Shown piece after piece: positions 27,097-35,477 of a stretch of DNA of 64,000 nucleotides; position 1 is the stretch's first letter; every line of letters starts with the position of its first letter. A program made the translations under genes and the position numbers. Under the pieces are notes generated by a model. That model was given only the letters and a program-made list of their open reading frames with translations, searched no databases and was not told where the DNA came from. Source of the stretch: Acidobacteriota bacterium (lineage in GTDB: Bacteria > Acidobacteriota > Vicinamibacteria > Vicinamibacterales > UBA823); NCBI GenBank assembly GCA_002730735.1, contig PCAU01000001.1, positions 148,925 to 212,924 on the forward strand, given 5' to 3'.

Positions 27097-27177
27097 GGTA
27101 TCGTGCGTAACACGCGCCCTCGGTTGGCGACCCAGTGAAGCGAGAAAACTAGTCATTGATTGAAGGAGGCTGACGAC

Positions 27178-27894
27178 ATGCATCGGCCACGATTCACGGC
27201 TTTAGCACTTTTCGTTCTGACGACGGCCTTTGCCGGATGCTCGAGTCCACCACCCGAGGAGACGTTGATCTCAAGTTTCTTCCGCGCATCCCGCTTTCGG
27301 GACAACATGACGTCCGCTAATCTTTCGATGGTGACGTTTAGTCCTGCTGAGAGAGGCGTTGTCTCGAGCTTTGAGGTGGAAAGCATCTCCGAAGAAACAA
27401 CGGCGCCGATGCGCGCCCGTGCGCTTAATGAAGCATTAATGGCAAGCCAGGCGTCGGAGTCAGAATTCTCTGAACGGAAGCAGGCTTACCAAGACGAGAA
27501 TCTTGAAGCGATTGAACGGGTCCTTGAAACTGAGCAAGCGGGCAACGCACCAAGCCGCCGAGCCGATCGAACGGTCCAGGAAGAATGGACACAGTGGCGC
27601 GCAGAGATGGCCCAACATGCCCAGGAAGTCTCCGATGCGCGTGCGGCGTTGAGCGATGGGCGCATTGTGGCAGAGGGTAGCACCTACAGCCCAACGGACA
27701 TGATCGACGTCGCGCTGTATGACGGCGAGATTATGTCAAAGACCGTCCGCATCATTGCGGATGTGGTCACACCGGACGAGCAAGATGTTCAGCAAACGCT
27801 CGAGGTCGAGATTCAGCGGGCCGAACTTGTTGGAGACGACGGCACGCCGGTCAGCGGGCGCTGGATCATCACGGCTATCGACGAAGTTGGGTAG
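27178..27894 (+). CDS. Predicted lipoprotein of unknown function
   Basis: The 238-residue product begins with a basic-hydrophobic signal ending in the lipobox F-A-G-C (Cys near residue 21), so it is probably lipidated and exported. Start ATG 27178 has AAGGAGG eight bases upstream; an earlier in-frame start at 27160 lacks this. The middle (about 80-160) is Glu/Ala/Gln-rich and likely helical or coiled-coil; the C-terminal ~70 residues look like a small beta domain ending G-R-W-I-I-T-A-I-D-E-V. I do not recognise the family. It sits between gyrA and the antiporter cluster. Confidence 0.8.
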   Translation: MHRPRFTALALFVLTTAFAGCSSPPPEETLISSFFRASRFRDNMTSANLSMVTFSPAERGVVSSFEVESISEETTAPMRARALNEALMASQASESEFSERKQAYQDENLEAIERVLETEQAGNAPSRRADRTVQEEWTQWRAEMAQHAQEVSDARAALSDGRIVAEGSTYSPTDMIDVALYDGEIMSKTVRIIADVVTPDEQDVQQTLEVEIQRAELVGDDGTPVSGRWIITAIDEVG

Positions 27895-28029: not shown

Positions 28030-28668
28030 ATGCGCGCGCCAGTCGACGAAAGATTGATGCGAGATCGTACGGCGATCGATGAACCGGGCATGGCGGAACA
28101 TGAACCAAGTCAGTCGCATCTTGGGCATCTAATCCACGAGTTCTGGCGCGGCCTGCCGTTTACCATCCTTCTCTTTGCCTTTTGGATTGTTCTATCGGGA
28201 AAGCTCGACAGGAGCCATTTGTTTGCCGGCGCTATCTGCGCCATTGCGATTTCGTTGTGGACCGGCCGACTTCTCAGCCTTCCGCCCCAGGTCGGTTCAT
28301 CGGCATCTCACCCGTTGGCTGGTGTGTTCTGGTCACGTTTTCCGATGTATTTGCTGTGGCTAGCCTGGCAGGTCATCAGGGCGAATCTACACGTGGCTAG
28401 GATCGTGCTGCATCCGCGAATGCCAATTGAGCCGAGTCTAGTGAGGCTGGATAAACCAGCGCCGCATACATTTGCCCGTCTGGTGCTCGCGAATTCCATC
28501 ACTTTAACGCCCGGGACTGTAACCCTTGATGTTGATGATGCCGGTTATCTGGTACACGCCTTGACCTCACGTAGCGCATCTGGCCTGAGAAGTGGTGACA
28601 CGGTGCAGCGATGCCAGGCGCTCTTCTTACGCTCAGATCTCGAGTTGGACCGAGAGGTGACCCAATGA
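28030..28668 (+). CDS. mrpE: Mrp-type cation/proton antiporter subunit E (MnhE)
   Basis: First gene of the antiporter cluster. The protein has two or three membrane helices near the N terminus (F-T-I-L-L-F-A-F-W-I-V-L-S-G; then a helix before L-L-S-L-P) and a soluble C-terminal domain with N-S-I-T-L-T-P-G-T-V-T-L-D-V, the MnhE signature. The start is uncertain: ATG 28030 (212 residues), ATG 28057 and ATG 28090 (192 residues) are all in frame, and none has a good Shine-Dalgarno sequence. The only strong one, GGAGG at 27991, serves a different short frame. Confidence 0.85.
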   Translation: MRAPVDERLMRDRTAIDEPGMAEHEPSQSHLGHLIHEFWRGLPFTILLFAFWIVLSGKLDRSHLFAGAICAIAISLWTGRLLSLPPQVGSSASHPLAGVFWSRFPMYLLWLAWQVIRANLHVARIVLHPRMPIEPSLVRLDKPAPHTFARLVLANSITLTPGTVTLDVDDAGYLVHALTSRSASGLRSGDTVQRCQALFLRSDLELDREVTQ

Positions 28669-28937
28669 GCCCGTTGCTACTCGGCACAGCGTTCGTGCTT
28701 GCCGCGGCGATGGTGTTTTCACTCTACCGCGTGCTTGCCGGACCAACCGTTTTCGACCGCCTAACGGGCTTAGGTCTCATCTCGACCAAGACCATTGTGT
28801 TTCTACTGGTGCTCGGATTTCTGACGGACCGCGTCGAAGTCTTCGTCGATATCACGCTCTCGTACACGTTGATCAGCTTCGTGGGCACACTTGCCTTAGC
28901 TAAGTACTTCGAGGCCAAAAAGGCGGATCAGCCATGA
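28665..28937 (+). CDS. mrpF: Mrp-type antiporter subunit F (MnhF)
   Basis: 90-residue membrane protein with three hydrophobic helices and the MnhF core Y-R-V-L-A-G-P-T-V-F-D-R-L (about 20-32). ATG 28665 overlaps the mrpE stop in an ATGA junction. The open frame runs further upstream to 28611, but that part only shadows mrpE. Confidence 0.92.
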   Translation: MSPLLLGTAFVLAAAMVFSLYRVLAGPTVFDRLTGLGLISTKTIVFLLVLGFLTDRVEVFVDITLSYTLISFVGTLALAKYFEAKKADQP

Positions 28938-29236
28938 TCCCTGTTGCTGACCTCGTGTTACTCGTAGGGCTTTTCTTTATTGCGGCTGGTGTGGTGGGCG
29001 TGCTCAGGCTGCCAGACTTCTACACGCGGTTACACGCCTTGGGCAAATCCGACACGCTGGGCGTGGCCCTAACCGTTGGCGCTTTGGCGCTACGCAGCGG
29101 TGCCACACTTACCAGTTTGAAGATCTTGCTAATTGTTGCCTTCGTAACGCTCGCCAATCCGACCGCTACCCACGCGCTTGGCCGGGCGGCATATCGGGCC
29201 GGCATTGCTCCGTGGCGACGGAAGGATGCTTTGTGA
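28934..29236 (+). CDS. mrpG: Mrp-type antiporter subunit G (MnhG)
   Basis: 100-residue, three-helix membrane protein with the MnhG pattern G-V-V-G-V-L-R-L-P-D-F-Y-T-R-L-H-A-L-G-K-S-D-T-L-G. It overlaps mrpF by 4 bases (ATGA) and the next gene by 4 bases (GTGA), so E, F and G are translationally coupled. Confidence 0.94.
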   Translation: MIPVADLVLLVGLFFIAAGVVGVLRLPDFYTRLHALGKSDTLGVALTVGALALRSGATLTSLKILLIVAFVTLANPTATHALGRAAYRAGIAPWRRKDAL

Positions 29237-29484
29237 CGCCAATGCTTGATCCATTGGCAGTTGTTTTTCTGATACTCATGATCATCTGTGCAATTTCGGT
29301 GCTCTCGGCGCGCGATTTACTGGCCGCTGTGACCGTTTTCGGCACGTTCAGTTTTTTTTCGGCTACTTACTTTGCGATTCTCGGCGCAGTTGATGTTGCA
29401 TTCACCGAGGCGGCAGTCGGTGCCGCCATCACGGCAGTTTTCTTTGTCACGGCGATTTTCCGGACTGACCGAGGTGCTGATTAG
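29233..29484 (+). CDS. MbhD-like (DUF4040) antiporter subunit
   Basis: 83-residue membrane protein, mostly hydrophobic, with A-R-D-L-L-A-A-V-T-V-F-G and V-A-F-T-E-A-A-V-G-A-A, the pattern of DUF4040/MbhD subunits. These correspond to the C-terminal part of MrpA in Bacillus-type complexes and to MbhD in membrane-bound hydrogenases. GTG 29233 overlaps the mrpG stop (GTGA); ATG 29242 is an alternative. Confidence 0.85.
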   Translation: MTPMLDPLAVVFLILMIICAISVLSARDLLAAVTVFGTFSFFSATYFAILGAVDVAFTEAAVGAAITAVFFVTAIFRTDRGAD

Positions 29485-29774
29485 TGGGCCGACTGTCGCT
29501 TGTCCCGCTCGTCGTGCTGGGCGCCCTCCTTATGACGGCGGCAGGCAGCTTACCGGCGGTCGGCGACCCCGAGTCTCCAGCGGCCACGCACGTGTCGCCA
29601 CGATACATTAGTCACGGGCATCAAGAAACGGGCGCCGCCAATCTCGTCACAGGTGTGTTAGCCGACTATCGATCCTACGACACACTAGGTGAGACGGCGG
29701 TGATCTGTGCGGCGGGTCTTGCCTGCTGGCTCATCCTCGGCGCGCGATGGCGAGAAGATGGTGAGGCGCAATGA
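29484..29774 (+). CDS. MbhE-like antiporter subunit
   Basis: 96-residue membrane protein with a signal-like first helix, a short extracytoplasmic loop and a second helix. N-L-V-T-G-V-L-A-D-Y-R-S-Y-D-T-L-G-E (about 51-68) is the conserved MbhE / MrpA C-terminal motif. GTG 29484 shares one base with the preceding TAG stop; the next gene overlaps by 4 bases. With its neighbour it supplies as separate genes what Bacillus MrpA carries fused to a large NuoL-like part. Confidence 0.85.
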   Translation: MGRLSLVPLVVLGALLMTAAGSLPAVGDPESPAATHVSPRYISHGHQETGAANLVTGVLADYRSYDTLGETAVICAAGLACWLILGARWREDGEAQ

Positions 29775-30205
29775 ATTTAGCGTTCGGTAGCCCAGCACTC
29801 GACGCGGCGAGCCGTCTGATGACACCGTTCATGCTGATGTTTGGTGCCTATGTGGTCGTACACGGTCACGACAGTCCAGGCGGAGGATTTCAAGGCGGTG
29901 TGATTATTGCAGCCTGCGTCATCCTGATTAGACTCGTCCGCGGACGAGCCGGGGGCTGGACACTCGCGCCCGAGCGTGCGCTGGTGTTTGCATGCGCGGG
30001 GCTGGGCATTTTTGTAGCGGTTGGGTTACTCGGCCCGCTTTTCGGTGGCAACTTTCTTGATTATTCTGTGCTTCCACTGTGGCTTGAGACCCCAGAAGTT
30101 CGAGCCGTTGGCAGTATGGCGATTGAGGTTGGTGTTGCGGTGACGGTAACTGGTGTTCTGACGCTCATTTTCGATGCGCTGGCCGAAGTGCGCAGTGACG
30201 GATGA
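29771..30205 (+). CDS. mrpB: Mrp-type antiporter subunit B (MnhB)
   Basis: 144-residue membrane protein with four predicted helices and the MnhB signature Y-V-V-V-H-G-H-D-S-P-G-G-G-F-Q-G-G-V-I (about 27-45). The C-terminal part has the usual E-V-G-V-A-V-T-V-T-G-V-L. It overlaps the MbhE-like gene by 4 bases. Confidence 0.94.
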   Translation: MNLAFGSPALDAASRLMTPFMLMFGAYVVVHGHDSPGGGFQGGVIIAACVILIRLVRGRAGGWTLAPERALVFACAGLGIFVAVGLLGPLFGGNFLDYSVLPLWLETPEVRAVGSMAIEVGVAVTVTGVLTLIFDALAEVRSDG

Positions 30206-30206
30206 A

Positions 30207-30581
30207 ATGGAAGGAATCTGGAACAGCGGAACGGCGGAATACTTTCTGACCATTGTGCTGCTACTGGTTGGACTCTACGGAATCGTCGCCCGTCAGCATT
30301 TCCTACGTAAGCTCATGGCGATGAACATCCTTCAGGTGGCGGTCATCGTGTTCTTCATCGCGTTGTCCGCTAAATCCGGCGCAACAGTGCCCGTGGTTAT
30401 CGAGGACGGGCACGAAATCAACGTCGCTTCATACGTCAATCCACTTCCCCACGCCCTGATGCTGACGGCGATTGTTGTGTCGGTTAGCACGACAGGGGTT
30501 GCTCTTGCCTTACTCATTCGTATCCGGCGGCGCTACGGTACGCTCAGTGAAACGGCGCTTCTCGCCAAGTTACGAGAATGA
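30207..30581 (+). CDS. mrpC: Mrp-type antiporter subunit C (MnhC, NuoK-like)
   Basis: 124-residue, three-helix protein homologous to NuoK of complex I: L-L-V-G-L-Y-G-I, then R-K-L-M-A-M-N-I-L-Q-V-A-V, then P-L-P-H-A-L-M-L-T-A-I-V-V-S-V-S-T-T-G-V-A. ATG 30207 is one base after the mrpB stop; a GTG at 30195 is an alternative. It overlaps the next gene by 4 bases. Confidence 0.92.
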   Translation: MEGIWNSGTAEYFLTIVLLLVGLYGIVARQHFLRKLMAMNILQVAVIVFFIALSAKSGATVPVVIEDGHEINVASYVNPLPHALMLTAIVVSVSTTGVALALLIRIRRRYGTLSETALLAKLRE

Positions 30582-32047
30582 GTGCGCATTTACCGGCTCT
30601 CGTCGTTGTGGCTCCTCTTCTCGCTGCGGTCGTGGTGCCGCTGCTTGGCCGCCGTTCACCGGGTGCAGCACACCTGGTCACTCTGGCCGCTCTAGGCTTT
30701 ACGCTGGCGGCTTCAACCTTTTTGCTTTCGGTGGTCGTAGCCAACGGCGTATGGCGGTATGCATTTGCCGGGTGGGCGCCGCCGTGGGGGATCGAATACG
30801 TTCTTGATCCACTAAGCGCTGGGATGATGGTGCTTGTCAGCTTTCTTGCGCTGGCCACATCGATTTACGCGTGGTCCTACCTCTTTGCAAGCGACCCACA
30901 GCGAATCGGAATTTTCGATTCGCTCTATCTTTTGTTAGTGACCGGACTACTTGGAATCGTGGCGACCGGGGATCTTTTTAATCTTTACGTATTCTTGGAA
31001 ATCTCTGCCATTGCAGCCTACGCGTTGCTTTCCACTGGCGGTGATCGCGCGACAGTGGCGACGTTTCGCTACCTACTGATCGGAACGGTGGCCGCGTCGT
31101 GCTATTTATTAGGCGTTGGCTTTCTCTACGCACTGACGGGCACGTTGAACATGGCTGACCTTACGGCCCGTTTGGCAGACGTCGATGACTCAACGGCCAA
31201 GGCTGCAGGCATTGGTTTGATTGTTATTGGCTTGGCTATCAAGGCCGCACTCTTTCCGTTCCATGGCTGGCAACCTGATGTCTACACCTACGCTCCACCA
31301 CCCGTCACCGGCTTTGTAGCCGCGGTTATGACAAAGGTGAGCGCCTACGCTATTTTTCGGGTGCTTTACTTTACCCTCGGCGGTGAGCCGACGGCGGGCA
31401 GCGCCCTGGTGTTTCTCGGCTGGGCAGGAGTAATAGCGATCCTGGCGGGTGCTTGGTTGGCGCTATCGCAAACCGATATCCGCCGGATGTTGGCTTACTC
31501 CAGTGTTAGCCAGATGGGCTACATTTTTTTTGGGTTTTCACTCGGCTCCCCGATTGCGCTTGTCGGAGCACTCTTCCACGTGCTGAATCATGCTGTGGTG
31601 AAGGGATGCCTCTTCCTCGTGGTGGGTGGTGTGAGGTGGCGTACCGGGGCATCAAACGTTGCCGAGTTTGTCGGTATGGGCCGGCGATTACCGCTGAGCA
31701 TGTTGGCCTTTGCGGTGGCCGCTGTGTCGTTGGTCGGCTTACCGCCCACCGCTGGTTTCTTTAGTAAATGGTACCTATTACTCGGTGCATTTGAGGCAGA
31801 GGCATGGATTGGAGTGGGAGCGGTTGTGGTGAGCACGGGGCTGAGCGCTGTCTACTTCTTTCGGATTTTTGAACGAGCGTTCGTTGTAACTGACGACAAG
31901 CTGTCGTCAGTCCGGTCAAACGACCTGCCCGTTGGAATGCTAGGCCCTGCGTTGGTGCTGGCCGCGGTGGTGCTACTGCTGGGCCTGTTCCAACAGCCAC
32001 TCATCACACACGTGCTACAGCGCGCCCTGCCGATCGCCGTGTCCTAA
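30578..32047 (+). CDS. mrpD: Mrp-type antiporter subunit D, NuoL/M/N family (first copy)
   Basis: Large ion-translocating subunit (489 residues, about 14 helices), homologous to complex I subunits NuoL, M and N. The key charged residues are visible: Glu141 in V-F-L-E-I-S-A-I, Lys222 in L-A-I-K-A-A-L-F-P-F-H-G-W and Lys253 in A-V-M-T-K-V-S-A-Y. This is the first of three homologues in the cluster, and the next gene starts directly after its stop. Confidence 0.93.
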   Translation: MSAHLPALVVVAPLLAAVVVPLLGRRSPGAAHLVTLAALGFTLAASTFLLSVVVANGVWRYAFAGWAPPWGIEYVLDPLSAGMMVLVSFLALATSIYAWSYLFASDPQRIGIFDSLYLLLVTGLLGIVATGDLFNLYVFLEISAIAAYALLSTGGDRATVATFRYLLIGTVAASCYLLGVGFLYALTGTLNMADLTARLADVDDSTAKAAGIGLIVIGLAIKAALFPFHGWQPDVYTYAPPPVTGFVAAVMTKVSAYAIFRVLYFTLGGEPTAGSALVFLGWAGVIAILAGAWLALSQTDIRRMLAYSSVSQMGYIFFGFSLGSPIALVGALFHVLNHAVVKGCLFLVVGGVRWRTGASNVAEFVGMGRRLPLSMLAFAVAAVSLVGLPPTAGFFSKWYLLLGAFEAEAWIGVGAVVVSTGLSAVYFFRIFERAFVVTDDKLSSVRSNDLPVGMLGPALVLAAVVLLLGLFQQPLITHVLQRALPIAVS

Positions 32048-33532
32048 ATGGATTTAGCCCTTCGTCCACTCGCCGCCGTGCTCGTCTCGCTGCTTGCCGC
32101 GGTGCTGTTGCCGTTAGTGGGCAGGCGACCAACCGTCCGAGAGACCATTACCATCACGGCCGCCATCTTAAAACTTGCTCTCGTTTCGTCGATGTTACCG
32201 GCTGTGCTTGCCGGGCAAGGGGTCGAAGGCGTGTCCTTCGCACTTGGGATGGGGTTATCACTACAATTTCGAGTTGATGCCCTGGGGCTGCTCTTCGCTT
32301 TGACGGCATCAAGCCTTTGGTTGCTGACCTCGATTTATTCGATTGGTTATCTCCGAGCGACTACTTCGACACACCAAACATCGTATTATTCTGCCTTTGC
32401 GGTTTGTTTATCGGCGACGGTCGGCATCGCGTTTTCGGGCAACCTTCTGACCTTCTTCGTGTGCTACGAAGTGCTGACGCTAGCGACCTACCCGCTTGTT
32501 GTACACGGCCGCACGCCAGAGGCGCAGGCTGCTGGCCGTCGGTATCTTGTGTACACACTAGCCGCTGGCCAGGCACTACTCGTCGCGACCGTGTGGGCGG
32601 AGACTCTTGTACCGGGAAGCGAGTTTAGGCCAGGTGGTTTCCTCAATAGCCAAACATCAAGTCTGACCGTCTGGATGCTCTTCGTGCTTTTTGTTGTCGG
32701 TTGCGGCGTCAAAGCCGCAATCATGCCACTACACGGATGGCTGCCCGCAGCCATGGTTGCCCCAACGCCAGTGAGTGCCTTGTTACACGCTGTAGCTGTT
32801 GTGAAAGCGGGTGTTTTCGGCATCGTTCGAATGGTGGGCTACGTGTTTGGCCTCGACACCCTTCGTGCGACCGGTGCCGATACTGTGTTGATCATCTTCG
32901 CCGTAGCAACCATCTTGATCGCGTCCATAAGAGCGCTGGGCGAAGACCGTCTGAAACGCCGACTAGCCTACTCAACCATCGGACAACTCTCCTATATTGT
33001 GCTCGGTGCCGCGGTGGGGTCGGTGGCAGCGTTGACTGGCGCGATGTTTCACATTGCTGGTCATGGGTTCATGAAAATCACCATGTTCTTCTGTGCAGGA
33101 ACGGTGCACACGCAGGCTCATCGCGACGGTGTCAAAGGCTTAGACGGACTGGGTCGGCAAATGCCTGTGACAATGACTGCTTTTGCTATCGGCGCGTGTG
33201 GATTGGCCGGCGTACCCCTACTGGCTGGTTTTATCGCGAAGTGGAATCTTGGCGTAGGTGCGGTCGAGGTCGACCACTTACTACTGGTCGGCGTGCTCGT
33301 AGTAAGTGGACTGCTAAATGTTGCCTACTTCTTTCCTATTCTTTTCGATGCGTTCTTCAGAGCACCGACTAGCGACGTGCGCGAGGCCGGGTGGGCGATG
33401 GTCTTACCGCTTGGCGTGACGGCAGTAGTGGCGCTACTTCTCGGAGTCATACCGGATTTCGGCCTCCACTTTTTTACCTTAGCCCGCCTCGCCGCCGAGA
33501 GTGTGGTCACTGGTGCTGGAGTGCTGCAATGA
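32048..33532 (+). CDS. Mrp-type antiporter subunit D, NuoL/M/N family (second copy)
   Basis: Second large antiporter-like subunit (494 residues). It keeps Glu141 (F-V-C-Y-E-V-L-T-L), Lys222 (G-V-K-A-A-I-M-P-L-H-G-W-L-P-A-A) and Lys253 (A-V-V-K-A-G-V-F), so it is expected to translocate ions. It is clearly diverged from the first copy rather than a recent duplicate. The next small gene overlaps its stop by 4 bases (ATGA). Confidence 0.92.
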   Translation: MDLALRPLAAVLVSLLAAVLLPLVGRRPTVRETITITAAILKLALVSSMLPAVLAGQGVEGVSFALGMGLSLQFRVDALGLLFALTASSLWLLTSIYSIGYLRATTSTHQTSYYSAFAVCLSATVGIAFSGNLLTFFVCYEVLTLATYPLVVHGRTPEAQAAGRRYLVYTLAAGQALLVATVWAETLVPGSEFRPGGFLNSQTSSLTVWMLFVLFVVGCGVKAAIMPLHGWLPAAMVAPTPVSALLHAVAVVKAGVFGIVRMVGYVFGLDTLRATGADTVLIIFAVATILIASIRALGEDRLKRRLAYSTIGQLSYIVLGAAVGSVAALTGAMFHIAGHGFMKITMFFCAGTVHTQAHRDGVKGLDGLGRQMPVTMTAFAIGACGLAGVPLLAGFIAKWNLGVGAVEVDHLLLVGVLVVSGLLNVAYFFPILFDAFFRAPTSDVREAGWAMVLPLGVTAVVALLLGVIPDFGLHFFTLARLAAESVVTGAGVLQ

Positions 33533-33756
33533 CGACACGTCAAGTGTTTGGCGCGATGACGGTGTGCACGGTTGGTCTTATCGCCATCGAAATCGCCATC
33601 GTGCAAGAAGTGCACGGCGGGTGGTGGCACCGTGTTGCAGGGTTCGACTTATTGGCTGGCTTCACCGGTTGCCTAGCGTTAATTTGGGGAGCCAAGGCGT
33701 TGGGTCGATTGGGGCTGCAACGGTCTGAGCACGAACATCCTGAGACTGAGCCCTAA
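33529..33756 (+). CDS. Small two-helix membrane protein in the antiporter cluster
   Basis: 75 residues from ATG 33529, which overlaps the preceding stop (ATGA). Two hydrophobic segments (about 6-26 and 38-56) are separated by H-G-G-W-W-H-R, and the tail is charged, ending E-H-E-H-P-E-T-E-P. Its own stop overlaps the next gene by one base. The tight coupling on both sides suggests a subunit or assembly factor of the complex. I do not recognise the family. Confidence 0.75.
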   Translation: MTTRQVFGAMTVCTVGLIAIEIAIVQEVHGGWWHRVAGFDLLAGFTGCLALIWGAKALGRLGLQRSEHEHPETEP

Positions 33757-35477
33757 TGATGACGCTCCCACATCCAGCGCTTGTGTTGATTGTCGCCGCC
33801 TCGTTCGCGGCGCTCACTCGCGGTCGAGCGCGCCAGGTGGGCTTAGTGCTGGCGACCCTCGCCGCACTGATCGCTGCGTTTGCATTGCCCGACGGTGACC
33901 GTGGTGTTGTCGAGCTCACTGGCCAAGGCCTCGTCCTGCTGAGAGTTGATCCAGTCAGCCGTTTCTTTGGCTTGATTTTCACGGCGATTGCGTTCATCGG
34001 CACTATTTACGGCCTCCACATTGATCGCGGCGGTGAGCACTTCACAAAGCTAATCTATGCTGCGGGCGCGCTTACCGTTATCTATGCGGGCGATTGGCTC
34101 ACCGTGTTTGCAGGCTGGGAGTTAATGGCCGTTACGTCACTAGCACTCATTTGGTTCGGTGGAACGACGCGCGCGCGAATGGCCGGGCTCCGGTACATTT
34201 ATGTGCACTTGACCGGCGGCTCGTTGCTTTTTTCAGGGATTGCACTGCTGTGGGCAAGCGGCGGTGAACTCACACTCACACGGCTGTCCCCTGGTACTGG
34301 CCTAGCCTCCGGCTTGATTCTCGCTGGCGTGCTTGTGAATGCCGCCGTGCCGCCCGTGCACGCTTGGTTGACCGATGCTTATCCCGAAGCCTCGGTCACA
34401 GGAACAGTCTTTCTGAGTGCATTCACGACGAAAACAGCCGTCTATCTGCTGATTCGCGTGTTTCCCGGAACCGAGGCTCTCATGTGGGCTGGCGCGATCA
34501 TGGCGGTCTACGGTGCTCTGTTTGCCGTGCTTGAAAACGACATTCGGCGGTTGCTCTCGTACCACATCATCAGTCAGGTCGGCTACATGGTGGCTGGCGT
34601 TGGCATGGGTACTGCACTCGCTGTTAACGGTGCGGCCGCCCACGCGTTCTCACACATTCTGTATAAGGCGCTCTTGCTCATGGGGGCAGGTGCCGTCTTA
34701 CAAGCGACCGGACGGAACAAACTAACCGAGTTGGGTGGCCTTGCACGTTCAATGCCTGGCGTTACGATGCTTTACCTGATTGGCGCCTGCTCGATATCTG
34801 GCGTGCCGTTGTTTAGTGGCTTTGTCAGTAAATCGCTGATTGTGTCGGCCGCGTCAGAGCATGGCCACGTAATGGTCGAATGGCTGCTGATCGTGGCCAG
34901 TGTCGGCACGTTCCTCCATACCGGACTGAAACTCCCCTATTTCACGTTTTTTGGACCGGACCGTGGCCTCAAGCCGACCCGTCTTCCACGGAACATGGTG
35001 GTCGCGATGGGATTGGCGGCGGCAGCCTGCATTGGGATCGGCGTGATACCCGACTGGTTGTACGCGCGGCTTCCAGTGCCGGAGGTCTCCTATGCACCGT
35101 ACACTTTTGACCATGTGTTATCGACATTACAGCTCCTGATCGGTACCGGAGTGGCGTTCTGGCTAGCACGGCAGTCACTGGGCGGTACACCAACAGTGAC
35201 CCTCGATACCGACCGGCTGTGGCGGCGCCCGGTCTGGATGTTAGTCACCTGTCTGGTCAACGGTGTTGCGATGGCCGGACAGCGCTGGCGGTTTGGCACA
35301 CTTGCTGTCGCCGAACGAGTTGCGGTGACCCTACAAAGCCCATTCCACGTGGCCCGGCCAGGGATGTTACCCTACGACGCGGATCGACATCGCTTGCCGA
35401 TCGGTGCGAATGTCGTCTGGATTGCGGTCGGGTTCGTAGCGCTCATGTTAGCCATTTGGCAGCTGACTGGCGTGTGA
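33756..35477 (+). CDS. Antiporter-like membrane subunit, NuoL/M/N family (third copy)
   Basis: 573-residue membrane protein with about 14 helices plus a longer C-terminal part. Glu122 (F-A-G-W-E-L-M-A-V) and the second lysine, Lys226 (S-A-F-T-T-K-T-A-V-Y), are conserved, but the central lysine of the G-x-x-K-A-A-x-x-P-x-H-x-W motif is Asn195 (V-L-V-N-A-A-V-P-P-V-H-A-W). Possible roles are a variant ion channel or a structural end unit. It is the last gene of the cluster and converges with pcrA, only 12 bases away. Confidence 0.9.
   Translation: MMTLPHPALVLIVAASFAALTRGRARQVGLVLATLAALIAAFALPDGDRGVVELTGQGLVLLRVDPVSRFFGLIFTAIAFIGTIYGLHIDRGGEHFTKLIYAAGALTVIYAGDWLTVFAGWELMAVTSLALIWFGGTTRARMAGLRYIYVHLTGGSLLFSGIALLWASGGELTLTRLSPGTGLASGLILAGVLVNAAVPPVHAWLTDAYPEASVTGTVFLSAFTTKTAVYLLIRVFPGTEALMWAGAIMAVYGALFAVLENDIRRLLSYHIISQVGYMVAGVGMGTALAVNGAAAHAFSHILYKALLLMGAGAVLQATGRNKLTELGGLARSMPGVTMLYLIGACSISGVPLFSGFVSKSLIVSAASEHGHVMVEWLLIVASVGTFLHTGLKLPYFTFFGPDRGLKPTRLPRNMVVAMGLAAAACIGIGVIPDWLYARLPVPEVSYAPYTFDHVLSTLQLLIGTGVAFWLARQSLGGTPTVTLDTDRLWRRPVWMLVTCLVNGVAMAGQRWRFGTLAVAERVAVTLQSPFHVARPGMLPYDADRHRLPIGANVVWIAVGFVALMLAIWQLTGV

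Follow-up and report, generated by a model that had tools for sequence, protein, structure and literature searches.

Group 3 Mrp antiporters are described as lacking an mrpA gene and as carrying mrpD-type genes only, sometimes several of them (PMC8415708; this and the other papers are cited from excerpts of their text). In the "green complex I", two MrpD-like subunits replace NuoL inside the nuo operon (PMC9040806, PMC7415380), and for the Mrp antiporters a cation path was traced over D29f, D35f, E706a, H37c/H40c, E137d, E796a, and D792a (PMC7419157). Here, we describe an Mrp-like cluster on a 64,000-nucleotide stretch of contig PCAU01000001.1 (hereafter the window), from an Acidobacteriota bacterium (assembly GCA_002730735.1, positions 148,925 to 212,924 of the forward strand). 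Eleven genes occupy positions 28030-35477 of the + strand in the order E-F-G-MbhD-MbhE-B-C-D1-D2-U-D3, where D1, D2, and D3 are large antiporter-type subunits and U is a small protein of an unnamed family. From sequence comparison, we assign a probability of roughly 0.68 to the reading that this is a stand-alone Group 3 Mrp, a monovalent cation/H+ antiporter driven by the proton-motive force, in which the jobs of MrpA would be divided among D2, D3 with U, MbhD, and MbhE.

All genes except U gave a Pfam match above the curated cut-off (MNHE, MrpF_PhaF, PhaG_MnhG_YufB, MbhD, MbhE, MnhB, Oxidored_q2, and three Proton_antipo_M). An earlier, sequence-only reading of the locus had proposed this gene order, with separate MbhD and MbhE proteins, three large antiporter-type subunits, and one unknown gene, all of which was borne out by the open reading frames (ORFs) and Pfam. 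It had announced ten genes; the cluster is real, with every named frame present, and the count is eleven, as in that reading's own list. Its remark that almost every junction overlaps by 1-4 bases also holds: six of the ten junctions overlap by 4 bases and two by 1 base, D1 and D2 abut (0), and B and C are separated by a 1-base gap with the starts as placed, which makes co-translation of the cluster likely.

No protein of the cluster joins an antiporter core to an MbhD/E domain; instead, there are three separate PF00361 proteins, and the Group 3 subunits B, C, E, F, and G are all present, with Pfam scores above the cut-off. The mrpE-like gene (28030..28668, 212 residues) scores 111 bits against MNHE (cut-off 27), the mrpG-like gene (28934..29236, 100 residues) matches PhaG_MnhG_YufB, and the mrpB-like gene (29771..30205, 144 residues) matches MnhB. 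In an NCBIfam scan of ten cluster proteins, the curated cut-off was reached, among the matches listed, only by G (TIGR01300) and by D3, which scored 665.8 bits against PRK12668, Na(+)/H(+) antiporter subunit D (cut-off 564). The MbhD-like gene (29233..29484, its start set at a GTG that overlaps G by 4 bases) matches Pfam MbhD and, in the PDB, subunit D of both MBS and MBH; judged by its sequence, its product is the counterpart of part of the MrpA C-terminal domain. The MbhE-like gene (29484..29774, 96 residues) matches Pfam MbhE and the MBH subunit E. No hydrogenase-like large and small subunit genes were recognised around the cluster, in keeping with the earlier observation that hydrogenase genes are lacking here, and no nuo genes adjoin it, although it shares the D2-U-D3 cassette with green complex I. 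The cluster is a stand-alone Group 3 Mrp of a well conserved and widespread kind, rather than a stripped hydrogenase.

The layout recurs. Relatives were found by scanning named genomes with a D3 alignment (the best 80 of at least 567), and the comparison set consists of 91 rows, namely, the window, ten relatives, and 80 loci, with six genomes present twice; gene order was read by profile search. D1-D2-U-D3 stands in an Mrp context in 37 of the 91 rows, with mrpF in view in 32 of those, among which MbhD was undetected in three and MbhE in two. By their titles, the Mrp-type rows come from Acidobacteria, Chloroflexi, Clostridia, Nitrospirae, Methanoperedenaceae, Delta- and Gammaproteobacteria, Ignavibacteriales, Balneola, and others. 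Since the identical order recurs in other phyla, chance is not a reasonable account of the cluster. Another 46 rows place D3 among nuo genes (see below), and the context was unassignable in the remaining eight.

Three loci of this set show unusual surroundings. In Balneola sp. EAC52 (L134, 1-20154), genes of the opposite strand flank the eleven-gene Mrp cluster, NuoL/M-type on one side and NuoJ/K-type on the other, an arrangement resembling a nuo operon broken in two by the cluster. In Acidobacteria BJ1 (L105, 3-3914, minus strand), a second Mrp cluster with MrpA/MrpD lies close to the eleven-gene cluster. In Nitrospiraceae bin899 (L073, 9863-12546), U and D3 are accompanied by a D2 that is shortened, and profiles for Mrp and nuo genes matched nothing in the stretch. 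This locus was considered as a third context for the cassette and rejected; its eight neighbouring ORFs include regulators, an aconitase, a LeuA-like synthase, a CBS-domain protein, and a TauE-type protein, and with neighbours of those kinds it looks like a broken piece, probably a remnant.

The sequence-only reading had labelled all three large subunits "D"; they are not interchangeable copies. In a quick LG+G4 tree of 139 rows, which has long branches and is rooted for display only, D1, D2, and D3 form three separate clades with Shimodaira-Hasegawa-like approximate likelihood ratio (SH-aLRT) supports of 98, 100, and 100, the haloarchaeal D2 and D3 falling within theirs; the deep branching of D2 and D3 relative to NuoL, NuoM, and MrpA has a support of 48. 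Residues at equivalent positions were taken from one alignment of large subunits with a few duplicate genomes among its rows, at most five of them for D3, and L105_m_D1, L105_m_D1bb, and L134_m_D2b, which the tree places in other complexes, were left out of the counts. D1 (30578..32047, 489 residues; Proton_antipo_M, 220 bits) finds MbsH, MrpD, and MbhH as its best PDB sequence matches. D2 (32048..33532, 494 residues; 196 bits) stops after the antiporter core, without the C-terminal extension of D3. The helix-8 His and Val of MrpA and NuoL (3/3 each) are found in D2 in all 85 rows and in MrpD in none of five; D2 is without the helix-8 Thr and Met of NuoL/MrpA. Read by motif, the D2 helix-8 His would be the same residue as His248 of Bacillus pseudofirmus MrpA, the switching of which was called critical (PMC9568556). 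The helix-8 Val position is Lys in D1 (31/34) and D3 (91/91), as in MrpD and NuoM. By these residue signatures, D1 resembles MrpD, and D2 resembles the MrpA/NuoL core.

D3 (33756..35477; Proton_antipo_M, PRK12668) was modelled from 43 sequences with a predicted local distance difference test score (pLDDT) of 90.3. The model consists of an antiporter core, a helix at 451-470, a long lateral helix at 483-527, where confidence is lower (57 to 81 as averages over ten residues), and a final helix at 549-571. In Foldseek, the highest-ranked hits were MrpA chains from Bacillus and Anoxybacillus, and the top rows of VIA-align were mostly NuoL/ND5 chains, with one MrpD chain tied: E. coli 7z84_L gave Z 45.2 with a root-mean-square deviation (rmsd) of 2.8 over 488 aligned residues, and 7qru_D gave Z 44.9 with an rmsd of 2.1 over 438. 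D3 thus models as a NuoL/MrpA fold with a lateral helix. The proposal of a split MrpA has, accordingly, gained stronger support than it had in the earlier reading, owing to the helix-8 residues of D2 and the MrpA/NuoL-type lateral helix of D3. The D3 tail has median lengths of 90 residues in 35 Mrp-type rows, 104 in 43 complex I rows, and 131 in three complex I rows with two NuoM, leaving aside eight unassigned rows (79 to 118); the longest, 139 residues, is that of L123. Tail length was rejected as a strict count of the large subunits, because the ranges overlap and five Mrp tails reach 115-116.

U (33529..33756, 75 residues) adjoins D3 and is predicted to be a two-helix membrane protein (helices 3-23 and 39-63; mean pLDDT 83). 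The window's U had no Pfam match up to an E-value of 1, and no PDB match by sequence or by Foldseek of the model, where a missing match proves little for so short a protein. Pfam and NCBIfam matches among U relatives were dismissed as chance, the best E-values being 0.0015 and 0.0045, with scattered families in at most four of 37 members. U was detected in 89 of the 91 rows, the exceptions being L075, whose contig starts at D3, and L123. In a sample of 199 Acidobacteriota, 22 genomes had D3 above the cut-off, at 23 loci in total, each with a U match just upstream; the only other U match, a partial one, was in G134. Nature has also split the cassette: in G090, G160, and G227 (L193-L198), an E-to-D2 operon and a far-off U-D3 pair occupy separate sites, and the positions of mrpF and D3 suggest the same split in six more genomes of the genus of G160 and G227. 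U therefore tracks D3 rather than D2, keeping its place beside D3 even when the pair is separate from the operon. Fusion of U to D2 in haloarchaea was considered and rejected, the longer haloarchaeal D2 having no U match.

From these features, we propose that the proteins form one complex, in which D1 would be the MrpD proton unit next to C, and the switching histidine would lie in D2, a proton unit of the MrpA/NuoL kind. At the end of the row, D3 would be held by U, and the lateral helix of D3 would run back along D2 and D1, holding the row together. The MrpA C-terminal domain would be represented by MbhD and MbhE, which would form the cation side together with C, F, G, B, and E.

On that side, the residues depart from those of the studied antiporters. 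D35f was called invariably conserved in Mrp, and D35L inactivates the complex (PMC7419157). The mrpF-like gene of the window (28665..28937, 90 residues; MrpF_PhaF) has Asp at the D29f position and Gly at the D35f position. Among the 32 Mrp-type rows with mrpF, which represent 28 distinct genomes, D29f is kept in all, and the D35f position is Gly in 23, Asn in six, and Ser in three. It is Asp in five solved F chains, in Thermomicrobium, and in two acidobacterial Group 2-like clusters. In the 199-genome sample, the position is acidic in 21 of 21 MrpF from other Mrp clusters (20 Asp, one Glu) vs. 0 of 20 from genomes with U-D3 (including G134, with U only); three of the 44 MrpF matches, a second weak one in G013 and two below the cut-off in G201 and G157, are unread. 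Because MrpF genes share descent, this split marks a clade and not 41 independent events. In the mrpC/NuoK-like gene (30207..30581; Oxidored_q2), an NxxQ motif stands near the position of the cation-binding His pair, with Val and Ile at the H37c/H40c positions and Gln before them. The Gln just before the lost pair was found in 32 of 34 rows (one gap and one row from another Mrp cluster, L105b; L090 is cut). A haloarchaeal relative likewise has Asn at the D35f position and the MrpC Gln. The cation path of the cluster has, by these residues, most likely been changed.

It is, therefore, possible, though we hold it as a tentative alternative, that Na+ is not what the complex exchanges, but rather K+, NH4+, or mainly protons, through a cation path unlike that of the studied Mrp complexes. 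The clade-wide loss of the acid and the Gln beside the lost His pair speak for it, whereas other parts of the path are intact: besides D29f and the MrpD-type Glu, the E706a-type Glu of MbhD is kept in 29 of 29 rows and the D792a/E796a pair of MbhE in 30 of 30 (both matched by motif; DTLxE in 28, including the DTLGE of the window, and DTFGE in two). Moreover, the His pair deviates in part in MBH, MBS, Thermomicrobium, and some Group 2-like controls as well, and the MrpC Gln is less specific, being present in G180 (L186) despite an acidic D35f position, with no D2, U, or D3 found in that stretch. In Bacillus subtilis itself, replacement of D35 by Glu or Asn was mild, and was harmful when expressed in E. 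coli (PMC7419157).

A second question concerns D3, which might be a true third proton unit giving more protons per cation, as has been proposed for extra complex I subunits; complexes with such subunits were proposed to move 5-6 protons or ions (PMC9040806). D3 does keep much of the proton machinery: the helix-5 Glu is present in all large-subunit rows (D1 34/34, D3 91/91), and D3 has the Lys of helices 8, 11, and 12 in every one of its 91 rows and, in at least 90 of them, the His pair of helix 11. However, none of the 91 D3 rows has the Lys of helix 7 (Asn in 89, the D3 of the window among them, and Ser in two), a residue that corresponds to E. coli NuoL K229 and belongs to an ion pair (PMC9271201); it is kept in D1 (34/34), D2 (85/85), NuoM (51/52), NuoN (46/46), NuoL (3/3), MrpA (3/3), and MrpD (5/5); the position is Glu in MbsH and Leu in HycC. 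A third proton unit is, in light of this uniform replacement, unlikely. D3 probably carries no protons by the usual Glu-Lys pair, in which case the protons exchanged need not exceed those of an ordinary Mrp.

The D2-U-D3 cassette is also found at the nuoL position in complex I operons of other genomes, a version that is the already published green complex I. D2 and U are present in the 46 complex I rows wherever the contig shows them, L123 excepted, and 42 of these rows have an unbroken NuoK-D2-U-D3-NuoM with no other large-subunit match between; three end at a contig edge, and L123 differs. On pSymA of Sinorhizobium meliloti M162, the order is NuoJ-NuoK-D2-hypothetical-D3-NuoM-NuoN, followed by A, B, C, D, E, F, and G; D2 is annotated as "monovalent cation/H+ antiporter subunit D family protein", D3 as "Na(+)/H(+) antiporter subunit D", and the "hypothetical protein" between them is U by profile match. 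In the tree, the D2 of complex I (12 rows) form one group (97), which joins two Mrp D2, one from a Nitrospirae genome and one gammaproteobacterial (99). For D3, the 13 complex I sequences fall together with four from Mrp clusters, one of Nitrospirae, two of Methanoperedenaceae, and one of the gammaproteobacterium just mentioned (99). The complex I D3 are not one group, as that of L095 is paired (99) with the D3 of the gammaproteobacterial Mrp and that of L123 falls among Mrp rows. The complex I copies thus appear nested among the Mrp copies, which suggests passage of the cassette from Mrp to complex I, for D3 perhaps more than once.

Taken further, D2-U-D3 might be a portable end-piece, in which D3 would be non-pumping and serve with U as a mechanical or gating clamp, the Mrp form being a clade without the canonical Na+ path that uses another ion; we regard this combined proposal as doubtful.

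Two observations touch the complex I operons. In Candidatus Troglogloeales (L123), D3 directly follows NuoK, D2 and U are undetected, and there are two NuoM-like genes. In two Deltaproteobacteria metagenome-assembled genomes (L076 and L094), complex I operons carry the cassette plus two NuoM, which brings the large subunits to five, a count ascribed to Candidatus Manganitrophaceae alone (PMC9040806, in the excerpted text).

Several results weigh against the division of MrpA functions proposed above, or against parts of it. Neither D2 (0/85) nor D3 (0/91) has the acid that follows the helix-12 Lys in NuoL (D400) and MrpA (E409) and that is supposed to gate protons in the end subunit. A NuoL carrying K229A still rescued B. 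subtilis deleted for mrpA (PMC4938563), so loss of the helix-7 Lys need not mean lost function. Nine of the 35 Mrp-type D3 tails exceed the complex I median of 104, the haloarchaeal cluster is without U, and the complex I operon of L123 has D3 without a detected D2 or U. Finally, canonical Na+ exchange is doubtful, because D35f and H37c/H40c of the published path are missing.

The sequence-only reading had likened the cluster to the antiporter module of a hydrogenase lacking its electron input, and had suggested looking for that input elsewhere in the genome. The host genome (1.58 Mb, 18 contigs) is 61% complete; D1, D2, and D3 are its only PF00361 matches, and PF00346 found no match in it (PF00374 was not searched), an absence that is weak evidence at this completeness. 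PF00346 is present in 13 of 14 genomes compared, and the four examined genomes of the host's family (G001, G004, G005, and G007) all encode an ordinary complex I with NuoL, NuoM, and NuoN adjacent, so that the host's Mrp probably coexists with an ordinary complex I. A module for a hydrogenase or other redox complex encoded elsewhere, which would fit the Mbh-like order of the first eight genes, the MbsH match of D1, and the cassette's occurrence in complex I operons, is very improbable and was rejected, given the recurring Mrp type, the family's ordinary complex I, and the absence of NuoA, B, CD, J, K, M, or N profile matches on either strand of the available stretch in 31 of the 32 Mrp-type rows with mrpF (hydrogenase genes were not searched there), the Balneola locus, with nuo-type genes on both flanks, being the sole exception.

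Between about 22 and 41 kb of the window, no listed ORF was recognised as a hydrogenase or complex I gene. The upstream neighbours are, from their translations, gyrB, gyrA, and a possible lipoprotein gene, and the downstream one is a UvrD/PcrA-type helicase gene on the opposite strand. The possible lipoprotein gene (27160-27894) lies on the same strand, directly upstream of the cluster.

The gene layout and its complex I version are known or annotated already. The features that seem new, within the literature searched, are the way in which MrpA functions are divided, U as a family, the absence of the helix-7 Lys from D3, and the changed cation path; no published description of U or of the missing Lys was recognised in the open-licence PMC literature, a scope outside which the 2016 green complex I paper lies. 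How long rows of antiporter subunits are coupled in complex I and Mrp is an open question, for which the cassette gives a natural comparison: one cassette serves both an antiporter and a redox pump, with a D3 that is without the ion-pair Lys in every row read, and two elements of MrpA, its proton switch and its lateral helix, appear to be carried by separate proteins, each open to deletion by itself. With the cassette, one could ask whether additional subunits bring additional pumped protons, and whether the "invariant" Mrp cation residues are needed. If D3 were indeed a clamp, the fourth large subunit of green complex I would add no fifth pumped proton, contrary to the published proposal. U itself is an overlooked conserved subunit, left as a "hypothetical protein" on the S. 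meliloti symbiotic plasmid.

Among known systems, the stand-alone Group 3 Mrp of Pyrococcus furiosus (mrpEFGBB'CD; PMC8415708) is like the window in having E-F-G first, then MbhD/E- and MnhB-type proteins, C, and D, and in having no mrpA and no redox genes; it has one large subunit and MbhD and MbhE fused as MrpB, whereas the window has three large subunits and U. Green complex I shares D2-U-D3, there at the NuoL position, but has NuoA-D and other redox genes, and is without E, F, G, MbhD, MbhE, and B. Pyrococcus MBH and MBS have their first eight genes in the window's order by homology, and D1, C, F, and MbhD of the window score best against MBS chains and MbhE against MBH; their D35f position is Asp, whereas the window lacks the hydrogenase-like module and has two further large subunits. 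The Mrp of Haloterrigena turkmenica pHTUR04 (E-F-G-DUF4040-B-C-D-D-D) has a D2 and a D3 in the window's clades but no U was found there, and its MbhD- and MbhE-type parts lie in one DUF4040 protein, unlike in the window. That cluster (L144, 4765-13335) is plasmid-borne and is flanked by site-specific integrase genes and, at its other end, by CbtA/CbtB genes. The Group 1 Mrp of Bacillus and Anoxybacillus is built from the same subunit families, with MrpA as a single protein and with both the MrpF Asp and the MrpC His pair present.

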